Source: a virus. From it: a DNA stretch of 39,311 nucleotides. The notes under the pieces are model-generated. The model was not told the DNA's origin, searched no databases, and was given only the letters and a program-made list of their open reading frames with translations. The DNA lies in the IMG/VR virus record IMGVR_UViG_3300028388_001734, positions 1 through 39,311 of that record. One strand, given 5' to 3'. Position 1 is the first letter of the stretch, and each line of letters begins with the position of its first letter. This document shows positions 14,739-28,710 of this stretch, piece after piece. Made by a program: the position numbers and the translations under genes.

Positions 14739-15628
14739 TGGCGACCTCTCCCTACAACAACCCGATGTTCGGTCAGTCCCTTGCGGGGCTGATCGACAGC
14801 TTTGTGGGCAACCCGCAGCAGGCGGCACAGGCTGAACTGATGGCAGCGCAGGCGCTGAACGAGAACCTGACTGCGCAGTACCGGCAGGCCATCGGCGACA
14901 CTGGTCTCTCCGGGGACCTATCCTCCATGATGATCCGCTCGCTTCAGGCAGGCCCTGACTACGCGAGGGTGGCCCCGACGATTGGGGACAACGCCCTGAA
15001 GTACGGCACTATGGGCTTCGGTAGCCCCGAACTGACGCCTGCACCCGGGTCTCTGGCCGACACCTTCATCCGCAACCTGATTACGCCACCGGCCCGTGGT
15101 GGTGGTGGTGGCTCATCTGGCTCTAGCCCGTCCCGTGACCTGACGCAATCGGAGGTTTCGCGCGTCTCCAAGCGCATCACGGAGGCTGGTTTCGAGGGGC
15201 AGGATGCAGTTTCTGTCGAGGCAAGGATCATGCAGGAGTGGAACACGGGCAAGTATTCCTCTCTGGAAGAGGCTGCGGCGGCGATCCTGCCTCAAGTCAG
15301 CTACACGAACACGAAAGTCGTGGATCAGAACTACGCATGGGAGCCTGAGACCGTCGATGACGGGAGTGGCTCTTGGCTTGGCCTCGCTGACGACACGCTG
15401 CTCTCCAATGTCTTCGACATGTTCCGTGGCCCCGAGATGGGGCCGGAACTTAGCCTGCCGCCCTTGGAGCAAGAGACGCCACAGCAAGGTCCTGCTTCTG
15501 GACTTCCCGAGGGGGAGACGGAGGAGAGCGTTCTGGAGCAGGCAAGAAAGGCGATCAGGGACGGCAAAGACCCTGAAGGCGTCAGGGAGGCCCTACGCGG
15601 TTACGGCATCGACCCGGGTAAACTCTGA
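14738..15628 (+). CDS. Internal virion protein, ejection module (296 aa)
   Basis: The ATG at 14738 overlaps the upstream stop (TGATG), with GGAAGGG 9 nt before it; an in-frame GTG at 14720 is less likely. The protein is helical with Ala/Gln-rich stretches (residues 25-55) and a Gly/Ser linker (about 115-128). An acidic C-terminal section contains a PEGVREALRGYGI helix near the end. No known domain is recognised. Position between the gp14-like and giant genes makes it a likely ejection-complex component. The last codons overlap the next start (TGATGG). Confidence 0.5.
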   Translation: MATSPYNNPMFGQSLAGLIDSFVGNPQQAAQAELMAAQALNENLTAQYRQAIGDTGLSGDLSSMMIRSLQAGPDYARVAPTIGDNALKYGTMGFGSPELTPAPGSLADTFIRNLITPPARGGGGGSSGSSPSRDLTQSEVSRVSKRITEAGFEGQDAVSVEARIMQEWNTGKYSSLEEAAAAILPQVSYTNTKVVDQNYAWEPETVDDGSGSWLGLADDTLLSNVFDMFRGPEMGPELSLPPLEQETPQQGPASGLPEGETEESVLEQARKAIRDGKDPEGVREALRGYGIDPGKL

Positions 15629-18600
15629 TGGCGGGTCTCTTCGATCACGTCCCGATGGCGAAGCAGAAATCGGGAGGTCTCTTCGATCACGTCCCGATGG
15701 CTGGCAATGAACCCCAGCCGACCCCGGTGATGCCTGCTGCCCCCGTGGAGCCGGTTCTGCCGCAGGGGCCTGCGTCTACCCCGGTCCCGGCTACGCCACC
15801 CGTGCCTCCCATGCCTCCCGTGCCTGCCCAGCCTGACTGGCTTCCGCCCACGCAGATGGTGACGCCGGAAGCCCCGGTCATGCCGCATGGGCCGGGTGTT
15901 GACCCCGGCCCGGAGGCGACGTGGCAGGATGACCTGAAGGCCGGTATGCTCCTGATGGAGCAGCTTGGTCCCGGCCTCAGAGCCGCTGGCGATATTGGGA
16001 GCCTGAACCGGGCGCTTGACGTTGCCGATGACGCAGAGGCGCGGCGCATCGCGCTCTTGGCTGAAGCTGACGCGCTGGAAGCTGAACTTGGGAACCTCGA
16101 CCCAGAGAGCCGTGCAATGGTGGAGGACGAGATACGCCTCCTGCGTCAGCGTGCGGTCCAGATGGAAGCGACGATGAACACCACGCAGGATGAGCGCGCT
16201 ATCGCTGATCTTGCTGGCGAGGCGGCTATCATCGGAGAACTGAATAAGGAAATTCAGGGCCTTCCGATTAGCGACACGGCAGTCCGCATTCAGGAGGGTG
16301 GCTGGGGCGATGCGTTCTCCGCTCTGTTAGATGACCCTATTGGTGCCATGCGGACGTTCGGCCTGCGGTCTCTGCCAGCGTCAGCGCCATCCATTGTCGG
16401 CGGCGTTCTTGGTCAGCTTGTGGGTGGCCCTGTCGGCGCGGCCATTGGCGGCGGCGCTGGCGGGTTCGGTGTCGAGATGGGGCTTTCCGTTTCTCAGGAT
16501 GTCGCGGAGGCCCTTGGCGAGGCAGGTGTCGATGCGACCAACCCGGAGGCGGTGGAGAACTTTGCCCTGCAAAACCCGGAGGTCTTCGGGGATGTCGTGA
16601 CGCGGGCGCTTGTCAGGGCTGGCGTCATCGGTGCCGCTGACGCCGTGACTATGGGCATCTCTGGCTCCGTCGCAACGGCCCTGCGCAACTCTGGCAAGGC
16701 GGCTCGCATTGGTGGCGCTGCCGCGACGGGTACTGTCGTTGAGCCTTTTGGCGAAATGGCGGGCGAACTTGGCGCGCAGGTCGCCACGGGCGATGAAGTC
16801 AGGCCGGGCGAAGTCATCGCCGAAGGTATCGGTGGCCTGACGCAAGGTGGCCCGACCGCTGTCGGTCAGACGATTGCCGAGGGCTTCAGAAACCCTGACG
16901 TGGTGCGGGCCTTCGAGCAATGGGCGAGGGGTCTGGACGCGATGCAGCCGCCCCCAGCCGAAGCTGTCGCTGCACAGGAATTGCGCCTCGACCGCCCATT
17001 CGGCGGGACGGAATTGCAGATGACCCCTGCGCAGCCCATCCCGCCCGCTGTGGACGAGACGCCAATAATCGCCCCGCCGGTAAACCCTGTTGTTCCTAAC
17101 AGCGAAGAGGAGCCGCCAGCGCAAGATGCCGAGCCGCAGACGCCCGCCCCGGAAGCGCCCATCCCGCAAGCTGAAGAGCCTGTGGCTCGCCCGGCTCCGG
17201 CACAAGCAGTCCCGGTGGAGGGGACGCCTGTACCGGCACCTCCGGCTCCGCAAAAGCGTCCTCTGACTAACGTGGTGAAACGCTACCTCCCCATCGACCC
17301 GACCGGGCCGGTGGGGCAGGAACTTCAGTACATGGGTGTCACGCCTCGCACAGCGCCGGGCCTGTTCCGGCGCGGTGGGTACATGGACCTCGACAACATC
17401 GTTGCCTCAGAGTACGCGGACCTCGATGAACTGGTCGGGCGCGATGACACCGGCATGTACCTGAACCAGCAGAACATCGTCCAAGCACTGATTGACGAGG
17501 CGCAGGGTCGCCCGTGGCAGACCGCAGAGCAGAAGGCGGTCCAGCGTGCGTGGGATGACTACCACAACATGGCCAACGAGGCGCGTGACGAACTCGCCCG
17601 GAACCGTGTTGTCGGCGACTTGGACGAGCGCCGTGACTTCGTGCCTTTCCCCGAGCAGGACATCACCGCCGGGACCGAAGAGCGGTATCGCCGGATCGAG
17701 ACGGCGATCAACATGGTCGAGCAGGAGATGCAGGTCAGGCTGACTTCCGTCGAGCGCAGGCTTATACAGGAGCAACTGGATCGCGAGGGCGGCTTCGTCG
17801 AGGACGCCATCGCTGACGCCATTACGAGGAGCGTTCTGAATGCAGAAGCCGGAGAACCAATCGTCCCCGTTGACACAGTTGCGGCAGCGGTCAGAGGCGG
17901 TGCTGAACGACCCGGGCAGCAACCAGTACAGCCGCCAGCAGGCGAGGCGGGCGCTGGCGCTCCTGCGCGGGCTGGAGAACCGCAGAGGCAAGGCACCGCA
18001 GAAGGCGGGGCAATCGACATCACCCCAGAGGGCGAACAACTCGTAATTCCGGGCGCGGAGCAGATCACCGACCGGGAACGTGCCGAGCGCAAGCAGCAGG
18101 AAGCGAAGCGTGGCGGCGATGCGCCCCCGCCTGCCGGTGGGCTGTTCGATGATGACGCGCGCAATCAGGACGATCTGTTTGCGCAGCAGCCAACCGAAAC
18201 AACCGAAACACCCACGGAAACCGATACACCCCCCGCAGAGGCTCCTCGCGGCAGGACATTCCGTGCCCTCCTTAATGGCATCGAGACGACTGCTCGCAAG
18301 CGGGGCGGGCGCTGGATGGTTGGCGGTGACTTTGACACGAACGGCGCTTTGATCGAACTGGAGCGTGACGGACGGCCCGCATGGTATGCGTTGAAGGGCA
18401 ACCGTCTGGTGTTCCAAGATTGGGTCAGCCCGAACGACCGTGGCCGTGACTTGGAGCAGGAGGCCGAGCCTCGCGGCGAGGTGGAAGCTGGCATTACCGC
18501 TTGGGAAGAGCCGATCAGCAGGGCCACGGAAGATGGCGGGACAGAGGTCATCCCAGAGGTTCTGGAGGAGTACGAGCGGAACCCTGTGAACTTCGTTGCG

Positions 18601-21600
18601 CGCCGCATCCTGTCTGACCTTGCGCCGAGCAAATACGGCGGCAAGAGAACGCGCGAGGCCCTACAGCGGAACATTGGTAGCCCGGTCCCGGGAGAGGTGA
18701 ACCACTCTGACGCTATCATCGACGCCGCTCTGGATGGGCTGATCGACCGTGGCCTTATCACCAAGAGCGGCCAATCCTACATGCTGGCCGAGGCACCGGC
18801 GCAGGATGCGCCGGTCACTCTCACTGACGAGAAGCTGACTACTGCGCGGCAGGACCCGGAAGAGGGTCCATACACCGACCTGACCTTCAGCGACGGGCGC
18901 ACGGCCCGCATCGCCCGCCTCGATAGCGGAGAGAGCGGCGGTCTTGCGGGGTGGCACCGCGTCGATGGGGAGTATGGCATCGGCCTTGGGAACAACAGCT
19001 ACCTCGCCGACAGGAAAGACGAGGCGATAGCGAAGCTGACTGAGTGGATGAACGAGAACCCACAGTCAGGCAAGAAGACCCCCAAGGACGAAGGCGGCAC
19101 CCTAGAGGAGCGGGGCGCTGACGCCGGGGCGCGTATTGGTCGCCGCCCGCCCGGCAAGTTGTCGCCCACGTTCCTGCACTTCTCGTTCAACAACAGGCCA
19201 TCCGTCTTCCAGTCAGCGTTGCGTGACGCGGGGATCGACCCGGAGGAAGCGCGCCTGATGGACGTGGACGAGCAGGTGCGGCGGATCAGCGGGATGATCG
19301 AAGAGAAGTTTGGCGTCAAGATCGAACTCCCGACGCAAACCTACCTGAAGCGCAACATCGTGGGCCGAAAGGTGAAGGTGACGAAGACCTCGATCACCAA
19401 CCGCGAGGCGCTGGATCAGCTTCTCGACGCCTACCAGAATATGTCGATGCTGGCCCACGTCATGGGCGTACCCGAGACTGCCATCGGCCTGCCGATCAAG
19501 GGGGAGGGCATCACCCTTTCCCTCGTCAGCACGGGGCGTCTGCGCGGCGCTCTTGGCATGTTCTCGTGGGGCAACGGGGCGCGGTCGATCACCCTTCCGG
19601 GGCGCTCGAACTCGTTTGCGCACGAGTGGGGGCACGCTCTGGATCACTACCTGAACAACGTCATCAACAAGCCTTCGTGGAAGCACATGATTACCCGGAG
19701 CCAGTCAGCGAAGGGCATGACGCGGCTGTACCCGGAGAACACCCCCAAGGCGATGCTGACCGAGGCATTCGCCCACGTCATCTGGGCCATGTACGGGGAT
19801 CGCTCCAAGGTGGCGGCTCTGGCGCTGGAACTTCAGGTGCGCGCTGCGAAGACCGACCCTGACGGCCAGCCGACCAACGACGCCAAGCGCGCCATCGACA
19901 TGCTGAAGAACATGGAAGACGGCACGATGCCGCCGCGTGACTTGGCTTCCCAGTACCTCGTGACTTCCGAGAACTTCGACGAAGCCATGAACGCTGGCGG
20001 GTATTTCGTCGATCCGGCAGAGATGTTCGCCCGTGCGTTCGAGGCTTGGGTGGGGCGATCCGTGGCCGCTGTGTCTGACTTGCCACAGAGTTTCCTGTCC
20101 AAGGGGCAATGGGCCTACGACGACACGAACGACAGACGCCTCGCCAATACTTTCCCGAAGGGCGGTGACGCTGACCAGTTCGCCATTGCCATGACGAAAC
20201 TCAGCGGGGCGCTGTCGTCAGCCAATATGTTCGGCGAGGAAGCGCCAGCGCCTGCCCCAACTGACGTGGTGATCCACAAGCCGCAGGAACTTCTGAAAAC
20301 GAAGCCCGGCAAGGGCCTGACGCAGCGAGAGGCTGACGAAATCAAGAGCGCCCTTGGGCGACTGAAGGCATTTCTGAAGGCCAGCACTTCCCGCGAAGCC
20401 TATGTGCAGGGGTTCAAGGGGCTTCGGACCTTCTACCAGACCGTCATCAGCACGGGCGGTCACGCGATGTACATGGTCGCTCTGCGTCAGGAGAACGCCA
20501 AGGCACGGGACGCCCTGATGAACATCGTCCGTCAAGTTGCCAAGGTTTCCCCGGGGAGGGGTATCTTCCAAGGCTCGATCTACCAGCAGGAACTGGAGCG
20601 CAAGGCCAAGCGCCGCGTGATGATGGTTTCCAACGCGGTCAAGGAACACTTTGGCGGGCTTCGCCTGAAGAAGGATGACCTGCGGGTGGTCCGGTCTCTG
20701 CTGATCGGGGAGCGTGTCCAGTCAAATGACAAGCAGCGTGCGCTGGCTGGCGACCTGCGTCAAATCCTGAACGAAATCTGGTACGAACTGAAGGAGGCTG
20801 GCGTCAAGGTCGGCTACGCCAAGGACTTCCTGCCGTACATCTACGACAAGGCGCGCATTGACGCGGACCCCCAGACCTTCAAGCGCAAGGCACGTCAGGT
20901 CTACCGGCTCCTGTTCCAGCGGGAGATTATCGAGAACGGCGACCCGGAGACGCAGGCCAAGGACATCTTCGCGCTCCTGAACGGCACCCAGACTGAAGAG
21001 GGCCTTCTGAAGGCGACCAAGGCAACAAGCGAGGGAGACCGCGCCCCTAGACCGTACCTCGATGAAGACGACATGAAGCTGGTCGATGACTGGCGTCGTC
21101 TTCGCGGCCAGCTTCGTGACATGGAGCGCAAGCTGAAGCGTGGCGAGTACGTTGACGAGGACGCCGCCCGGGAGCGCATTGCCGCCAAGCAGGAGGAGGT
21201 TCAGGAGGCGCTTGACGCCATGATGCCCATGCTTCAGGCGCGCTACGCCGAGGCTGCGACGGATCGCTGGTACATCCGCCTTGGCGTCGGCCAGCTAAAT
21301 GACTTTGAACACATCGGGCCGAACTCCTCCTTCCTGAAGGGGCGCGTCCTCCCGAAAGAAACGGGCGCGATCCTGAGTGAGTTTATGATCGAAGACCCGA
21401 TTGACCTTATCTCTGGCTATGCCTTCTCGGCGGCTCGCATTGCGGAGTATGCCAAGCGGTTCGGGGCGAAGCACGAGAAGCTGGAGAATATGCTGGAGGC
21501 AGCGCGTGACGCCGGGACCTCGACCGAGGACCTAGACTTTATGAAGAAGGCGGTGCAGGCGGCTACCGGCAGAATGGTGCCAAGCACGAGTGGCTGGTCG

Positions 21601-22977
21601 AAGATGCGTCAGATCACGTTCACTCTCGGCAACCTGTCGATGCTCGGCCTTGCGACCTTCACGTCGCTTTCGGAGAGCGCCGTCGCTGGCATGAGAACGG
21701 GGCGCACCCGTGACGGCCTCTGGGCCTTCGTGGAGGCTGCTCGCGCACTTCGCAGGGGTCGGCGAGAGGAACTGAAGGACCTCGCCTCTGTGGTCGGCCT
21801 GATCGCTCCATACACGATGGAGACGGTCATGGAGAACCGCCTGAGTGCTGACGCCCTCGACATGCCAAGGTGGATGCGGGAGACGGTTGGTCGGTTCTTC
21901 ATCGCTAACGGCCTGACGCCGCTCACGCAATTCCAGCGCACAGCCATGACGCCGGTTGCCCACGCCACGATCCTGCGCCTGCTTCGCGACAACGTGCGCG
22001 GCAAGCGGACGGTCAACTCTCGGCTTCGCGATGTTAGTGCTGGCGGCAAAGGGCAGTTTGCGAACAACGAACTGAACGAACTGGGCATCAGTCAGGACTT
22101 CAGGGAGGACCTGCTGTCTTGGATCGAAAGCCTCGACGGCCTGCCACAGGTCGATGACATGTATGCGAACGATGGCTCGCTGCACCCGGCGGCGGAACTC
22201 TACGCCCGCGCGCTGTCTCGTCTGGTCGAGGAAATCATCCAGAACCCCCTGAAGACTGACCGCCCGATCCAAGCGAACCACCCTGACTACGCGGCGCTCT
22301 ACGGGATTATGAGTTTCATCGACGGCTTCACCCGGAATGTTCTCCTGCGGAACCTGTACCGGGGCGTCAAGTCAGAGGATCGCTGGCATGTGGCTGGCGT
22401 CAAGATGACTTACAACACGGCCCTCGCGGCTGCTCCGTTCGGCGTTCTGCTGGCGGGGCACATGCTGACTACGATCCTTCGGGAGGCCCTGCTGAACGAA
22501 GACAAGTGGGACGAACTGGAGGAGGAAGGCGAACTGGAAGAGTGGCTGTTCAAGCGTGCGTTCTTCCGCACCGGCATCACCGGACGCCTCGACCCGCTGA
22601 TCCAGATGGGCGTCGGCATCAAGTACGAGCGTGACCTGACTGCAATCACGGCAGGCCCGTACCTGTCCTACCAGATGCAGAACATGCAGAGGATTTACGC
22701 GGCGTTTGCCGGGCGGAACTCGGACAACACGAACACGGCAGAGTACAACGCGATGCGGGCTGCTTACTCTCTGCTTGTTCAGCCGCTTGCCAACATTGCG
22801 CTCTCGAACCTTGGCCCGATGGGGCCGCTCTCCGTCAACATCCTGACGCGGCCAGCGATTATCAACGCCAGCGCCTACGACAGCAGCGCCAAGTTTGCCG
22901 AAAGTCTCGTCGGCGAGAAGGGCACCCAGTACGACAAGGCCGGAATACCCACCCCTTGGTGGGAACTCGGTGACTGA
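15628..22977 (+). CDS. Giant polyvalent ejection protein with LPD1-like zinc metalloprotease motif
   Basis: A 2449-residue protein, the largest in the window. Order: duplicated GLFDHVP tag (residues 3-9 and 17-23); Pro-rich linker (30-75); coiled coil (130-210); Gly/Ala-rich membrane-like region (250-430); Pro-rich linker (465-545); conserved globular section (548-640); Glu/Pro linkers with a third GLFD copy near 836; a small beta domain (876-930); and a zincin domain (about 1180-1440) with HEWGH at 1332-1336 followed by ALDHYL, the large polyvalent protein LPD1-type signature. The rest is mostly helical with hydrophobic stretches near 2005-2030 and 2265-2290. Proteins of this kind are packaged in podovirus heads and ejected with DNA; the protease could act on host envelope or cytoplasmic targets, which is inference. 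Starts at a coupled TGATGG junction. Confidence 0.8.
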   Translation: MAGLFDHVPMAKQKSGGLFDHVPMAGNEPQPTPVMPAAPVEPVLPQGPASTPVPATPPVPPMPPVPAQPDWLPPTQMVTPEAPVMPHGPGVDPGPEATWQDDLKAGMLLMEQLGPGLRAAGDIGSLNRALDVADDAEARRIALLAEADALEAELGNLDPESRAMVEDEIRLLRQRAVQMEATMNTTQDERAIADLAGEAAIIGELNKEIQGLPISDTAVRIQEGGWGDAFSALLDDPIGAMRTFGLRSLPASAPSIVGGVLGQLVGGPVGAAIGGGAGGFGVEMGLSVSQDVAEALGEAGVDATNPEAVENFALQNPEVFGDVVTRALVRAGVIGAADAVTMGISGSVATALRNSGKAARIGGAAATGTVVEPFGEMAGELGAQVATGDEVRPGEVIAEGIGGLTQGGPTAVGQTIAEGFRNPDVVRAFEQWARGLDAMQPPPAEAVAAQELRLDRPFGGTELQMTPAQPIPPAVDETPIIAPPVNPVVPNSEEEPPAQDAEPQTPAPEAPIPQAEEPVARPAPAQAVPVEGTPVPAPPAPQKRPLTNVVKRYLPIDPTGPVGQELQYMGVTPRTAPGLFRRGGYMDLDNIVASEYADLDELVGRDDTGMYLNQQNIVQALIDEAQGRPWQTAEQKAVQRAWDDYHNMANEARDELARNRVVGDLDERRDFVPFPEQDITAGTEERYRRIETAINMVEQEMQVRLTSVERRLIQEQLDREGGFVEDAIADAITRSVLNAEAGEPIVPVDTVAAAVRGGAERPGQQPVQPPAGEAGAGAPARAGEPQRQGTAEGGAIDITPEGEQLVIPGAEQITDRERAERKQQEAKRGGDAPPPAGGLFDDDARNQDDLFAQQPTETTETPTETDTPPAEAPRGRTFRALLNGIETTARKRGGRWMVGGDFDTNGALIELERDGRPAWYALKGNRLVFQDWVSPNDRGRDLEQEAEPRGEVEAGITAWEEPISRATEDGGTEVIPEVLEEYERNPVNFVARRILSDLAPSKYGGKRTREALQRNIGSPVPGEVNHSDAIIDAALDGLIDRGLITKSGQSYMLAEAPAQDAPVTLTDEKLTTARQDPEEGPYTDLTFSDGRTARIARLDSGESGGLAGWHRVDGEYGIGLGNNSYLADRKDEAIAKLTEWMNENPQSGKKTPKDEGGTLEERGADAGARIGRRPPGKLSPTFLHFSFNNRPSVFQSALRDAGIDPEEARLMDVDEQVRRISGMIEEKFGVKIELPTQTYLKRNIVGRKVKVTKTSITNREALDQLLDAYQNMSMLAHVMGVPETAIGLPIKGEGITLSLVSTGRLRGALGMFSWGNGARSITLPGRSNSFAHEWGHALDHYLNNVINKPSWKHMITRSQSAKGMTRLYPENTPKAMLTEAFAHVIWAMYGDRSKVAALALELQVRAAKTDPDGQPTNDAKRAIDMLKNMEDGTMPPRDLASQYLVTSENFDEAMNAGGYFVDPAEMFARAFEAWVGRSVAAVSDLPQSFLSKGQWAYDDTNDRRLANTFPKGGDADQFAIAMTKLSGALSSANMFGEEAPAPAPTDVVIHKPQELLKTKPGKGLTQREADEIKSALGRLKAFLKASTSREAYVQGFKGLRTFYQTVISTGGHAMYMVALRQENAKARDALMNIVRQVAKVSPGRGIFQGSIYQQELERKAKRRVMMVSNAVKEHFGGLRLKKDDLRVVRSLLIGERVQSNDKQRALAGDLRQILNEIWYELKEAGVKVGYAKDFLPYIYDKARIDADPQTFKRKARQVYRLLFQREIIENGDPETQAKDIFALLNGTQTEEGLLKATKATSEGDRAPRPYLDEDDMKLVDDWRRLRGQLRDMERKLKRGEYVDEDAARERIAAKQEEVQEALDAMMPMLQARYAEAATDRWYIRLGVGQLNDFEHIGPNSSFLKGRVLPKETGAILSEFMIEDPIDLISGYAFSAARIAEYAKRFGAKHEKLENMLEAARDAGTSTEDLDFMKKAVQAATGRMVPSTSGWSKMRQITFTLGNLSMLGLATFTSLSESAVAGMRTGRTRDGLWAFVEAARALRRGRREELKDLASVVGLIAPYTMETVMENRLSADALDMPRWMRETVGRFFIANGLTPLTQFQRTAMTPVAHATILRLLRDNVRGKRTVNSRLRDVSAGGKGQFANNELNELGISQDFREDLLSWIESLDGLPQVDDMYANDGSLHPAAELYARALSRLVEEIIQNPLKTDRPIQANHPDYAALYGIMSFIDGFTRNVLLRNLYRGVKSEDRWHVAGVKMTYNTALAAAPFGVLLAGHMLTTILREALLNEDKWDELEEEGELEEWLFKRAFFRTGITGRLDPLIQMGVGIKYERDLTAITAGPYLSYQMQNMQRIYAAFAGRNSDNTNTAEYNAMRAAYSLLVQPLANIALSNLGPMGPLSVNILTRPAIINASAYDSSAKFAESLVGEKGTQYDKAGIPTPWWELGD
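15634..15701 (+). repeat. Perfect 26-bp direct repeat encoding the GLFDHVPMA tag twice
   Basis: Positions 15634-15659 and 15676-15701 are identical, 42 bp (14 codons) apart, at the very start of the giant gene. Perfect DNA identity points to a recent in-frame duplication or selection for two copies of the tag. Confidence 0.85.
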
Positions 22978-27014: not shown

Positions 27015-27036
27015 GTGCCCGGATTAGTGCCCGGAT
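27015..27036 (+). repeat. Left-arm direct repeats GTGCCCGGAT x2 of attP
   Basis: Two identical 10-mers at 27015-27024 and 27027-27036, spaced 12 bp, lie 55-75 bp left of the tRNA-like core. Related copies occur on the right side of the core. This is the usual arrangement of integrase arm-type binding sites. Confidence 0.6.
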
Positions 27037-27054: not shown

Positions 27055-27081
27055 TTGCGGGGGGAGAAAGTCTCGTATAGT
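27055..27081 (+). promoter_or_regulatory. Promoter-like sequence directly before the tRNA-Ser fragment
   Basis: TTGCGG (27055-27060) and TATAGT (27076-27081) with a 15-nt spacer end 9 nt before the first base of the tRNA-like block, so transcription would start almost at the tRNA 5' end. After integration this sequence would lie upstream of the host tRNA 3' half. Confidence 0.5.
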
Positions 27082-27090
27082 CAGGGACTT

Positions 27091-27131
27091 GGAGACGTGG
27101 CCGAGTGGTCGAAGGCGCTCCCCTGCTAAGG
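27091..27131 (+). other. attP: attP core: 5' half of tRNA-Ser(GCU), acceptor stem through anticodon loop
   Basis: The 41 nt can be read as a bacterial tRNA-Ser 5' half: 7-nt acceptor strand GGAGACG, TG, D arm GCC-GAGTGGTCGAA-GGC, then anticodon stem CTCCC, loop CTGCTAA with anticodon GCT, and GG of the 3' stem strand. The following GAAA cannot complete the stem, and no T-arm or 3' half follows, so this is a tRNA fragment, not a gene. Identity to a tRNA ending in the anticodon stem is the hallmark of an integrase core site. The integrase gene is about 560 bp away. Conventional sites keep the 3' half; this one keeps the 5' half. Confidence 0.8.
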
Positions 27132-27171
27132 AAATATTCGGTGCGTTTGTGGTACTGGCTTTGGCCTCGAC

Positions 27172-27215: not shown

Positions 27216-27240
27216 GTGCCCGAATGGGGCACTCGGGCAC
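27216..27240 (+). repeat. Right-arm repeats of attP (GTGCCCG family)
   Basis: GTGCCCGAAT at 27216-27225 in direct orientation and CTCGGGCAC at 27232-27240, which is GTGCCCGAG on the other strand, with GGGGCAC between. They match the left-arm copies in their first 7 bases and sit about 85-110 bp right of the core, completing a P/P' arm layout. Confidence 0.55.
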
Positions 27241-27268: not shown

Positions 27269-27691
27269 TCAGACATGGCTAACTACCGTAAATTCGTTGA
27301 AGTCGATTTCGCAGACAGGCTCTTGGTCCGCGCTGTCGCCACGGTCAGTGCGCCCGCCGTGGACGACAGGGTATGGCGGGTTGATGCGGTGCGAAAGGAT
27401 GGCGTCATCAAGCGCCGCCACCAGTATGACCGGCAGTCCTGTCGCTCGCAGAGAGGTCAGGGAAGCAATCTTCCCCAGCCCGATGTGCAGCGTCGGGTAC
27501 TGCCCCATCTTGATCTTCCGTCTTTTCACTTCGATCAGCGCCTTGGCTTCGCTGCCCCTGTAGGCCACAAGATCGCATGGATACATCCTCGGGAGTTGGC
27601 GCATGTCGCAGCGCCACGCCCTTTCAAGAGCCAGAGCAACATCCCGCTCGTTGGCCCTGTCCTGCTGCGTCTCGTAGACTGGTCGGTTCAT
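27269..27691 (-). CDS. Small PD-(D/E)XK-type nuclease
   Basis: A 140-residue protein with the core of a PD-(D/E)XK nuclease: a helix with E15, then D40 (PCDLVAY), and E54-V-K56 (ALIEVKRRK), spaced as in Holliday-junction resolvase-like and VRR-type enzymes. A strand-helix-strand tail follows (LPVILVAALDD). It overlaps the integrase stop by 4 nt, so the two genes are coupled. Likely role: resolving or trimming branched DNA in phage recombination or integration. The substrate is not visible from sequence. Confidence 0.65.
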   Translation of the reverse strand: MNRPVYETQQDRANERDVALALERAWRCDMRQLPRMYPCDLVAYRGSEAKALIEVKRRKIKMGQYPTLHIGLGKIASLTSLRATGLPVILVAALDDAILSHRINPPYPVVHGGRTDRGDSADQEPVCEIDFNEFTVVSHV

Positions 27692-28710
27692 ATGCCCCTC
27701 GCCTCTGCGATGCCGAGCAGTTCGTCGGCGGTGTGGTGCCGGTAGACCCTGTAGATCGTCCGCAAGTCAGTCGCAGTCAGCTTCGACACGTCACCCGGGG
27801 GGACGCCCTGACGCAGCATCGACGTGATGGCGGTGTGCTTCAGAACGTGCGGCGTCACCCACTCGTAGCCGATGCTGCGCATGAATGCCTTGAAGACCTT
27901 GGGCGTGTTGCGCTCGCAGACCCAGCCACCGCCTTGGAAGGCGGCAGACAGGTCATCGCGGATCGTGCGTGTCATAGGCACCACCGGGCGGCGCTTGCGG
28001 TTCGTGGGCTTGCCCGGGACGTTGAAGTTGATGGTGTTGGTCACGAAGTTCACCATCGCCCCGTCATAGCGCAGGTCCATGATCGCGCCACGCCGCACCC
28101 CGTAGGTCAGGGCGAGGCGGGTGAAGATGCGGACACTGACTGGAGCGTCGTGGAGAGCGTCCAGAACCTCGCGCTCCTGTTCAGCAGTCAGCCACAGGTC
28201 CCGCACGGCGTCGTCGGACGGCTTCTCGAACCGGAAGGGGCGGTTGGCCCGGATCAGGTCCTTGCGCAGCGCCCAGTTCAGCACGGCTTGCAGCGCCACT
28301 ATCTCGCGCCGGATGGTCGATGGCTTGACCTTCTTCGGCCCGTACTGCCCACGGGACCGGGCGCGGCTGTAGGACTGCACGTCAGCGTCACTGATGGACG
28401 CGGCAGGGGCTTCACCAAAGGCACCAACTGGCGCACGAAGAACGCGCCTGTCCGTGATTTCGTTGCCCCTCGGGCGGGAGTGCTGGCGAATGTAGATTTC
28501 CACAACGTCAGCGAAGGAACGCTGGTCGCGATCAATGTCCACGGCTCGCAGGGTCAGAAACTCGGCCAGCGCCTTCTCGGCGTCACCACGGTTCTTTGCG
28601 CGCGAGGAGCGGCGGCGTGACCGCCACTCCCCGTTGCGCAGTTCCGACCACTTGATTTCGTAGAAGCCGTGTTCGTTCGGCTCCTTGGAAAGTCGAGGGA
28701 AGGTTCTCAT
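27688..28710 (-). CDS. int: Tyrosine integrase
   Basis: A 340-residue site-specific recombinase. N-terminal arm-binding and core-binding domains precede the catalytic domain: R206 (YGVRRG), H288-V-L-K291-H and nucleophile Y323 in RVYRHH. Two canonical positions differ: the HxxR arginine is lysine (K291), and the usual LGH reads LTA, a pattern known in a subfamily of alphaproteobacterial prophage integrases. It should recombine attP, 0.56 kb away, with a host tRNA-Ser gene. The start overlaps the XRE regulator stop (ATGA), so it is expressed with that gene. Confidence 0.95.
   Translation of the reverse strand: MRTFPRLSKEPNEHGFYEIKWSELRNGEWRSRRRSSRAKNRGDAEKALAEFLTLRAVDIDRDQRSFADVVEIYIRQHSRPRGNEITDRRVLRAPVGAFGEAPAASISDADVQSYSRARSRGQYGPKKVKPSTIRREIVALQAVLNWALRKDLIRANRPFRFEKPSDDAVRDLWLTAEQEREVLDALHDAPVSVRIFTRLALTYGVRRGAIMDLRYDGAMVNFVTNTINFNVPGKPTNRKRRPVVPMTRTIRDDLSAAFQGGGWVCERNTPKVFKAFMRSIGYEWVTPHVLKHTAITSMLRQGVPPGDVSKLTATDLRTIYRVYRHHTADELLGIAEARGI

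Follow-up and report, generated by a model that had tools for sequence, protein, structure and literature searches.

An attP carrying the 5' half of tRNA-Ser(GCU) behind a predicted tRNA promoter in a probable phage of alphaproteobacteria

In the IMG/VR virus record IMGVR_UViG_3300028388_001734, whose 39,311 nucleotides were analyzed as a whole (the window), we identified a phage attachment site that consists of the 5' half of a tRNA-Ser(GCU) gene preceded by a predicted tRNA-type promoter. The best explanation for the whole arrangement, with a probability of about 0.93, is an attP directed at the anticodon loop of tRNA-Ser(GCU), where the promoter and 5' half of the phage rebuild the tRNA. 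The tyrosine integrase would exchange strands in the anticodon loop of the host gene. Because attP carries bases 1-41 behind a tRNA-type promoter, two junctions are to be expected. At attL, the promoter and 5' half of the host, now displaced, would run into phage DNA. At attR, the phage would contribute its own DNA, promoter and 5' half, and the joining of this 5' half to the 3' half of the host would form a complete tRNA gene. Provided that the window phage forms lysogens and its promoter is active, tRNA-Ser(GCU) of the lysogen would be transcribed from the phage promoter. We infer that the virus is a temperate phage of an alphaproteobacterium, probably of the Rhodobacterales.

The attP core is located at positions 27091 to 27131 (+ strand), reads GGAGACGTGGCCGAGTGGTCGAAGGCGCTCCCCTGCTAAGG and extends from the acceptor 5' strand to the anticodon loop. 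It is identical in 41 of 41 nucleotides to bases 1-41 of complete tRNA-Ser(GCU) genes on 13 other IMG/VR contigs, which were found by an exact-core search that imposes an identity of at least 41 nt and imposes neither the divergence beyond the core nor the promoter. The exact match also occurs in seven named Rhodobacterales replicons of Thioclava (five), Qingshengfaniella and Ponticoccus, and those examined at the match all carry a complete tRNA-Ser(GCU). The identity begins with base 1 of the tRNA (27090 is t, compared with c in most host genes) and its last two bases lie beyond the anticodon loop (position 27132 has a, compared with g in the host). Judged by its length and exactness, this identity to a tRNA gene excludes chance. 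No tRNA was found by ARAGORN in the whole 39,311-base record, tRNA sequence past base 41 is absent from the window, and the sole tRNA match in Rfam, which starts at 27091, stays below the threshold (25.2 bits, gathering score 29). The initial annotation had placed an attP core equal to the 5' half of this tRNA at exactly these coordinates, with identity from the acceptor 5' strand through the anticodon loop. Both statements hold, and a complete tRNA at the locus, which it had named as evidence to the contrary, was not found.

The core is flanked by phage genes on both sides. An exonuclease (phrog_704) is located to its left, and a PDDEXK nuclease, the integrase, RecT and exonuclease VIII to its right, with the terminase, portal and head genes more distant in the window. 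Since phage genes lie on both sides and the window contains no complete tRNA, the site is an attP. The tyrosine integrase (340 aa; 27688 to 28710, - strand; Pfam Phage_integrase 2.5e-9, phrog_1 2.7e-39) has its 3' end toward the core, and attP lies outside the integrase gene. The gene between them encodes a PDDEXK_14 phage nuclease (27269 to 27691, - strand; Pfam PF24579, 3.9e-31). The nucleophile tyrosine and other catalytic positions of the integrase align with those of tyrosine recombinases. It has HVLK in place of HxxR, with lysine at the usual second catalytic arginine, and a Ruegeria relative (L027) likewise has lysine at that position (HTLK). Candidate arm-type sites for the integrase were found around the core as copies of the decamer GTGCCCGRAT. 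The P arm contains GTGCCCGGAT at 27015 and 27027 (27015 to 27036, + strand) and the P' arm (27216 to 27240) contains GTGCCCGAAT at 27216 (+ strand) and an inverted near-copy, GTGCCCGAG, at 27232-27240 (- strand). The decamer occurs exactly three times in the whole window (27015, 27027 and 27216), always in attP, and all four copies, including the inverted one, lie at most about 120 bases from the anticodon loop, as expected of arm-type sites.

Upstream of the half gene, the spacing of promoter elements resembles that of the host genes. In most host tRNA-Ser(GCU) genes of this group, CTTG precedes the first base of the tRNA by about 36 nt, and an element containing TA precedes it by about 13 nt. 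In the window, the predicted -35 element TTGCGG (within CTTGCGG; 27055 to 27060, + strand) has its TTG starting at -36, as in host tRNA-Ser genes. The predicted -10 element TATAGTCA (27076 to 27083, + strand; -15 to -8) was assigned by consensus only and may be read as TATAGT at 27076 or as TAGTCA at 27078 with a spacing of 17 nt. A sigma-70 consensus scan gave no promoter here, and a matrix trained on host tRNA-Ser promoters, chosen afterwards and allowed at the tRNA-promoter position only, scored the site with p=0.0015 against all other window positions. For six phage-borne flanks combined, the matrix gave p about 4e-8. A TTG starting between -39 and -33 is present in all 24 distinct half-site flanks, compared with a background of 0.116 per flank; four of these (L023, L085, L087 and L103) are or may be host flanks at attL junctions, and the remaining 20 all carry the TTG (20/20). 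The kinship among the phages makes a plain product of chances too optimistic, yet the contrast is still very large. No TTG is present at that position in the control sites, where this same tRNA is represented by its 3' half alone. Among the half-site flanks, the promoter position is constant and the remaining sequence is variable. These comparisons support the view that the phage supplies, ahead of the half gene and with the spacing seen in the host, a tRNA-promoter-like and presumably active sequence.

Dozens of IMG/VR contigs share this 5'-half site, as do two isolated phages of Rhizobium. A rhizobial variant of the core adds 70 IMG/VR stretches, 36 of them with the half gene only, a few of which end within a few bases of the core and have its 3' side outside the stretch. 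All 5'-half sites with enough flanking DNA have a nearby integrase with its 3' end toward the core, located either to the left on the + strand or to the right on the - strand. In the tree, these integrases fall into at least three groups: L019, L024, L025 and L026; L011, L023, AK57 and the RHph phages; and the window integrase together with those of Mae-Yong1326-1, RHph_N65 and Ruegeria. No other row of the tree exceeds 32% identity to the window integrase. The RHph_N65 and Ruegeria integrases adjoin the 3' end of other tRNAs (the RHph_N65 fragment was recognized by eye), and the nearest relatives appear to use 3' ends of other tRNAs. Therefore, the site choice of the window integrase rests on its own attP. 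For the same reason, the 5' half seems to have been adopted on more than one occasion, a tentative conclusion from a tree with long branches.

The half tRNA could also have been left behind by an imprecise excision or captured from a host, with the integrase using another site. The distance of 560 bp between integrase and core, with the nuclease gene in between, and the position of the closest integrase relatives near other tRNA 3' ends would fit such an origin. A relic, however, does not explain why unrelated phages of three integrase groups retain exactly the same half beside a convergent integrase, nor why the core is undecayed, candidate arm repeats lie on both of its sides and the promoter position is conserved while the other flank sequence differs. 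We consider this origin improbable.

Several other sequences with parts of this tRNA were inspected. L009 and L023, from one metagenome, have the left flank and the 41-nt core in common and diverge exactly after the core; one of the pair has a complete tRNA and a different integrase. They show one host tRNA either with two different elements or in two states. The Thioclava plasmids L054, L057 and L059 contain a second 5' half (1-2 mismatches) near mqo, which points the opposite way to the intact gene at a distance of 4-6 kb and is possibly a displaced fragment that was later inverted. A prophage junction pair was rejected for these plasmid halves by their inverted orientation and slight divergence. 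Rhizobium phage phiU was rejected as a precedent, as it carries a 3' end. Burkholderia phage Bcep781 and Acidovorax phage ACPWH were rejected as 5'-half cases because they contain complete tRNA-Ser genes; the tRNA-Ser(GCT) gene of Bcep781 (L034; NC_004333.2, 17815) is unannotated in the record.

Joining the window left flank and core to the 3' half from Qingshengfaniella in silico gave an attR that ARAGORN recognizes as a complete tRNA-Ser(gct), and no tRNA was recognized in the reciprocal attL or in attP itself. The same outcome is seen for another phage that uses this site, in a lysogen of Sinorhizobium meliloti AK57 (CP090106.1), where two direct copies of the core lie 54 kb apart. At attL (1160837), host DNA with the host promoter leads into the 5' half gene, followed by an integrase, and ARAGORN detects no tRNA. 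At attR (1214830), prophage DNA with the phage promoter precedes a complete tRNA-Ser(GCU). Sinorhizobium sp. K101 provides the related site without a prophage. Here, the sequence from the upstream flank to the end of the 5' half aligns with the AK57 attL, and the tRNA aligns with attR. The downstream flank aligns with the AK57 sequence past attR once a local insertion is skipped, and this insertion alone interrupts the contiguity of the AK57 host flanks. The 3' half of tRNA-Ser(GCU) occurs once in the AK57 chromosome, which therefore has no intact copy other than the rebuilt gene. CP090106.1 (L031, L061 and L062) is labelled pSymB, comprises 3.72 Mb and carries three 16S genes, so it is a mislabelled chromosome. 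In a second lysogen (contig 2651869794_000004), attL (L127) consists of a host-type promoter and the half gene, and attR (L095) of a different promoter and the complete tRNA.

For the window phage, no lysogen, close relative or named host was found in IMG/VR or in species genomes; exact-peptide scans of IMG/VR with the integrase and the terminase gave no near relatives, and the peptide scan of species genomes gave distant actinobacterial integrases only. Its integration most likely restores a functional tRNA, with the start and the promoter supplied by the virus. The initial annotation had proposed that integration replaces the 5' half of the host gene. This is borne out at the same site by the S. 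meliloti lysogen and, for the window phage, in silico. Prophages elsewhere with a different core had been named as evidence against it; the readable integrated elements with this core are located at tRNA-Ser(GCU). Replacement of the promoter by the phage is a supported addition to that interpretation. The promoter-like element and half tRNA might instead serve mainly to produce a truncated tRNA-like RNA in phage growth, with attachment as a secondary role, and the weak full-length match to the Rfam tRNA family could be taken as a trace of such an RNA. That match is under the family cut-off, though, the sequence after the core varies among unrelated phages with the same half, and integration as in AK57 accounts for both parts, all of which makes such a role very improbable.

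The strand exchange itself lies probably in the anticodon loop, because this tRNA is also targeted, through its 3' half, by unrelated phages. Seven IMG/VR contigs (L135, L136, L137, L138, L139, L140 and L142) carry the 3' half of tRNA-Ser(GCU) only and are the classical mirror image at the same anticodon loop. Their identity starts at CCCCTG or slightly earlier, and the overlap between the 5'-half and the 3'-half-only sites, CCCCTGCTAAGG (27120 to 27131, + strand), comprises the anticodon loop and its edges and is the probable strand-exchange segment. In the gene, CTCCC and GGGAG form inverted arms on either side of the loop CTGCTAA, and a site with this symmetry can be used by an attP with either half. 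The proposed crossover is consistent with the class of integrase targets located in the anticodon loop (Williams 2002, as cited in PMC8371274 and PMC4383910). Although 3'-half elements exist at this tRNA, the idea that the window carries a classical 3'-half attP read in the wrong direction has next to no probability and is refuted by the sequence, in which bases 1-41 are present, the 3' part is absent and the orientation is set by the acceptor strand and D arm.

These arrangements suggest that a sole tRNA gene can be safely broken from the promoter side, since the phage brings its own tRNA promoter. Several integrase lineages do so at one alphaproteobacterial tRNA and others use the 3' half of the same gene. 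They provide natural matched sets in which to test how an important gene of the host is driven by phage promoters and how the half that is carried changes within an integrase lineage. Tools for attP detection that are restricted to 3' tRNA ends will miss 5'-half elements. It is conceivable, and in our opinion rather unlikely, that promoter and 5' half let phages of alphaproteobacteria set the lysogen's expression of the sole tRNA reading AGC and AGU, so that integration acts as a translation switch, and that the 5' half widens the host range because it avoids the species-variable long arm of serine tRNA.

Elements with a 5' fragment have been described before. The accessible text of the Islander study lists 3919 islands, of which 3760 have a 3' and 159 a 5' fragment (PMC4383910), in line with the initial annotation, which had named the 3' half as the usual one in tRNA-directed phages. 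The 5' class resembles the window phage in its tyrosine integrase, its tRNA gene target and an attP with the 5' part. Its displaced 5' fragment upstream of the intact gene in the same orientation is seen in the AK57 lysogen; for the window phage, the tRNA is restored in silico. In contrast, that text gives counts, we found no discussion of an attP-borne promoter in it, and the window phage is not among the cases that could be checked. Among phiLM21-like S. meliloti prophages, 7 of 25 are integrated at tRNA-Ser(GCU) and the tRNA is reconstructed, as far as the accessible text reports (PMC12429752); the carried half was not found stated there. They share target gene and reconstruction with the window phage, and the AK57 prophage is similar to them in size and site. 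However, this is another phage, with the AK57 integrase being about 19% identical to that of the window. The Rhizobium phages RHph_TM3_3_3 and RHph_I1_23 (MN988468 and MN988556) carry the 5' half of tRNA-Ser(GCU) with one mismatch, the TTG promoter element and a right-hand integrase directed at the core, but differ in integrase lineage (16% identity) and host, and the tRNA half is unannotated.

Microcystis phage Mae-Yong1326-1 (OP028995) is the closest phage found, with an integrase of about 30-34% identity, but it has no such tRNA half near its integrase in the region examined. The C-terminal half of a 2449-aa window protein (15628-22977, + strand) is 32% identical to a Mae-Yong1326-1 protein annotated as peptidoglycan transglycosylase; otherwise, this protein has a weak virion-protein match only. 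The archaeal plasmid pTN3 shares a 41-bp att over the 5' half of a tRNA, which is rebuilt and cut off from its original promoter (PMC5495485, PMC8371274); according to a review, similar cases have rarely been encountered in bacteria (PMC8371274). Suicidal integrase elements of the pTN3 and SSV type have attP inside the integrase gene and split this gene when they integrate, whereas the integrase gene of the window phage is separate and whole. In tRNA-dependent lysogeny (PMC10865867), the core has about 10 bp, the tRNA is not rebuilt and the phage encodes a full replacement tRNA; in contrast, the window phage has a 41-nt core, a tRNA rebuilt in silico and no tRNA gene. In the literature accessible to us, we found no statement of a dedicated, position-conserved promoter in attP, or of a single tRNA whose two halves are used by different phages of alphaproteobacteria. 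Thus, the 5'-fragment class is already known, and the window phage is an uncommon arrangement with promoter replacement as its clear feature.
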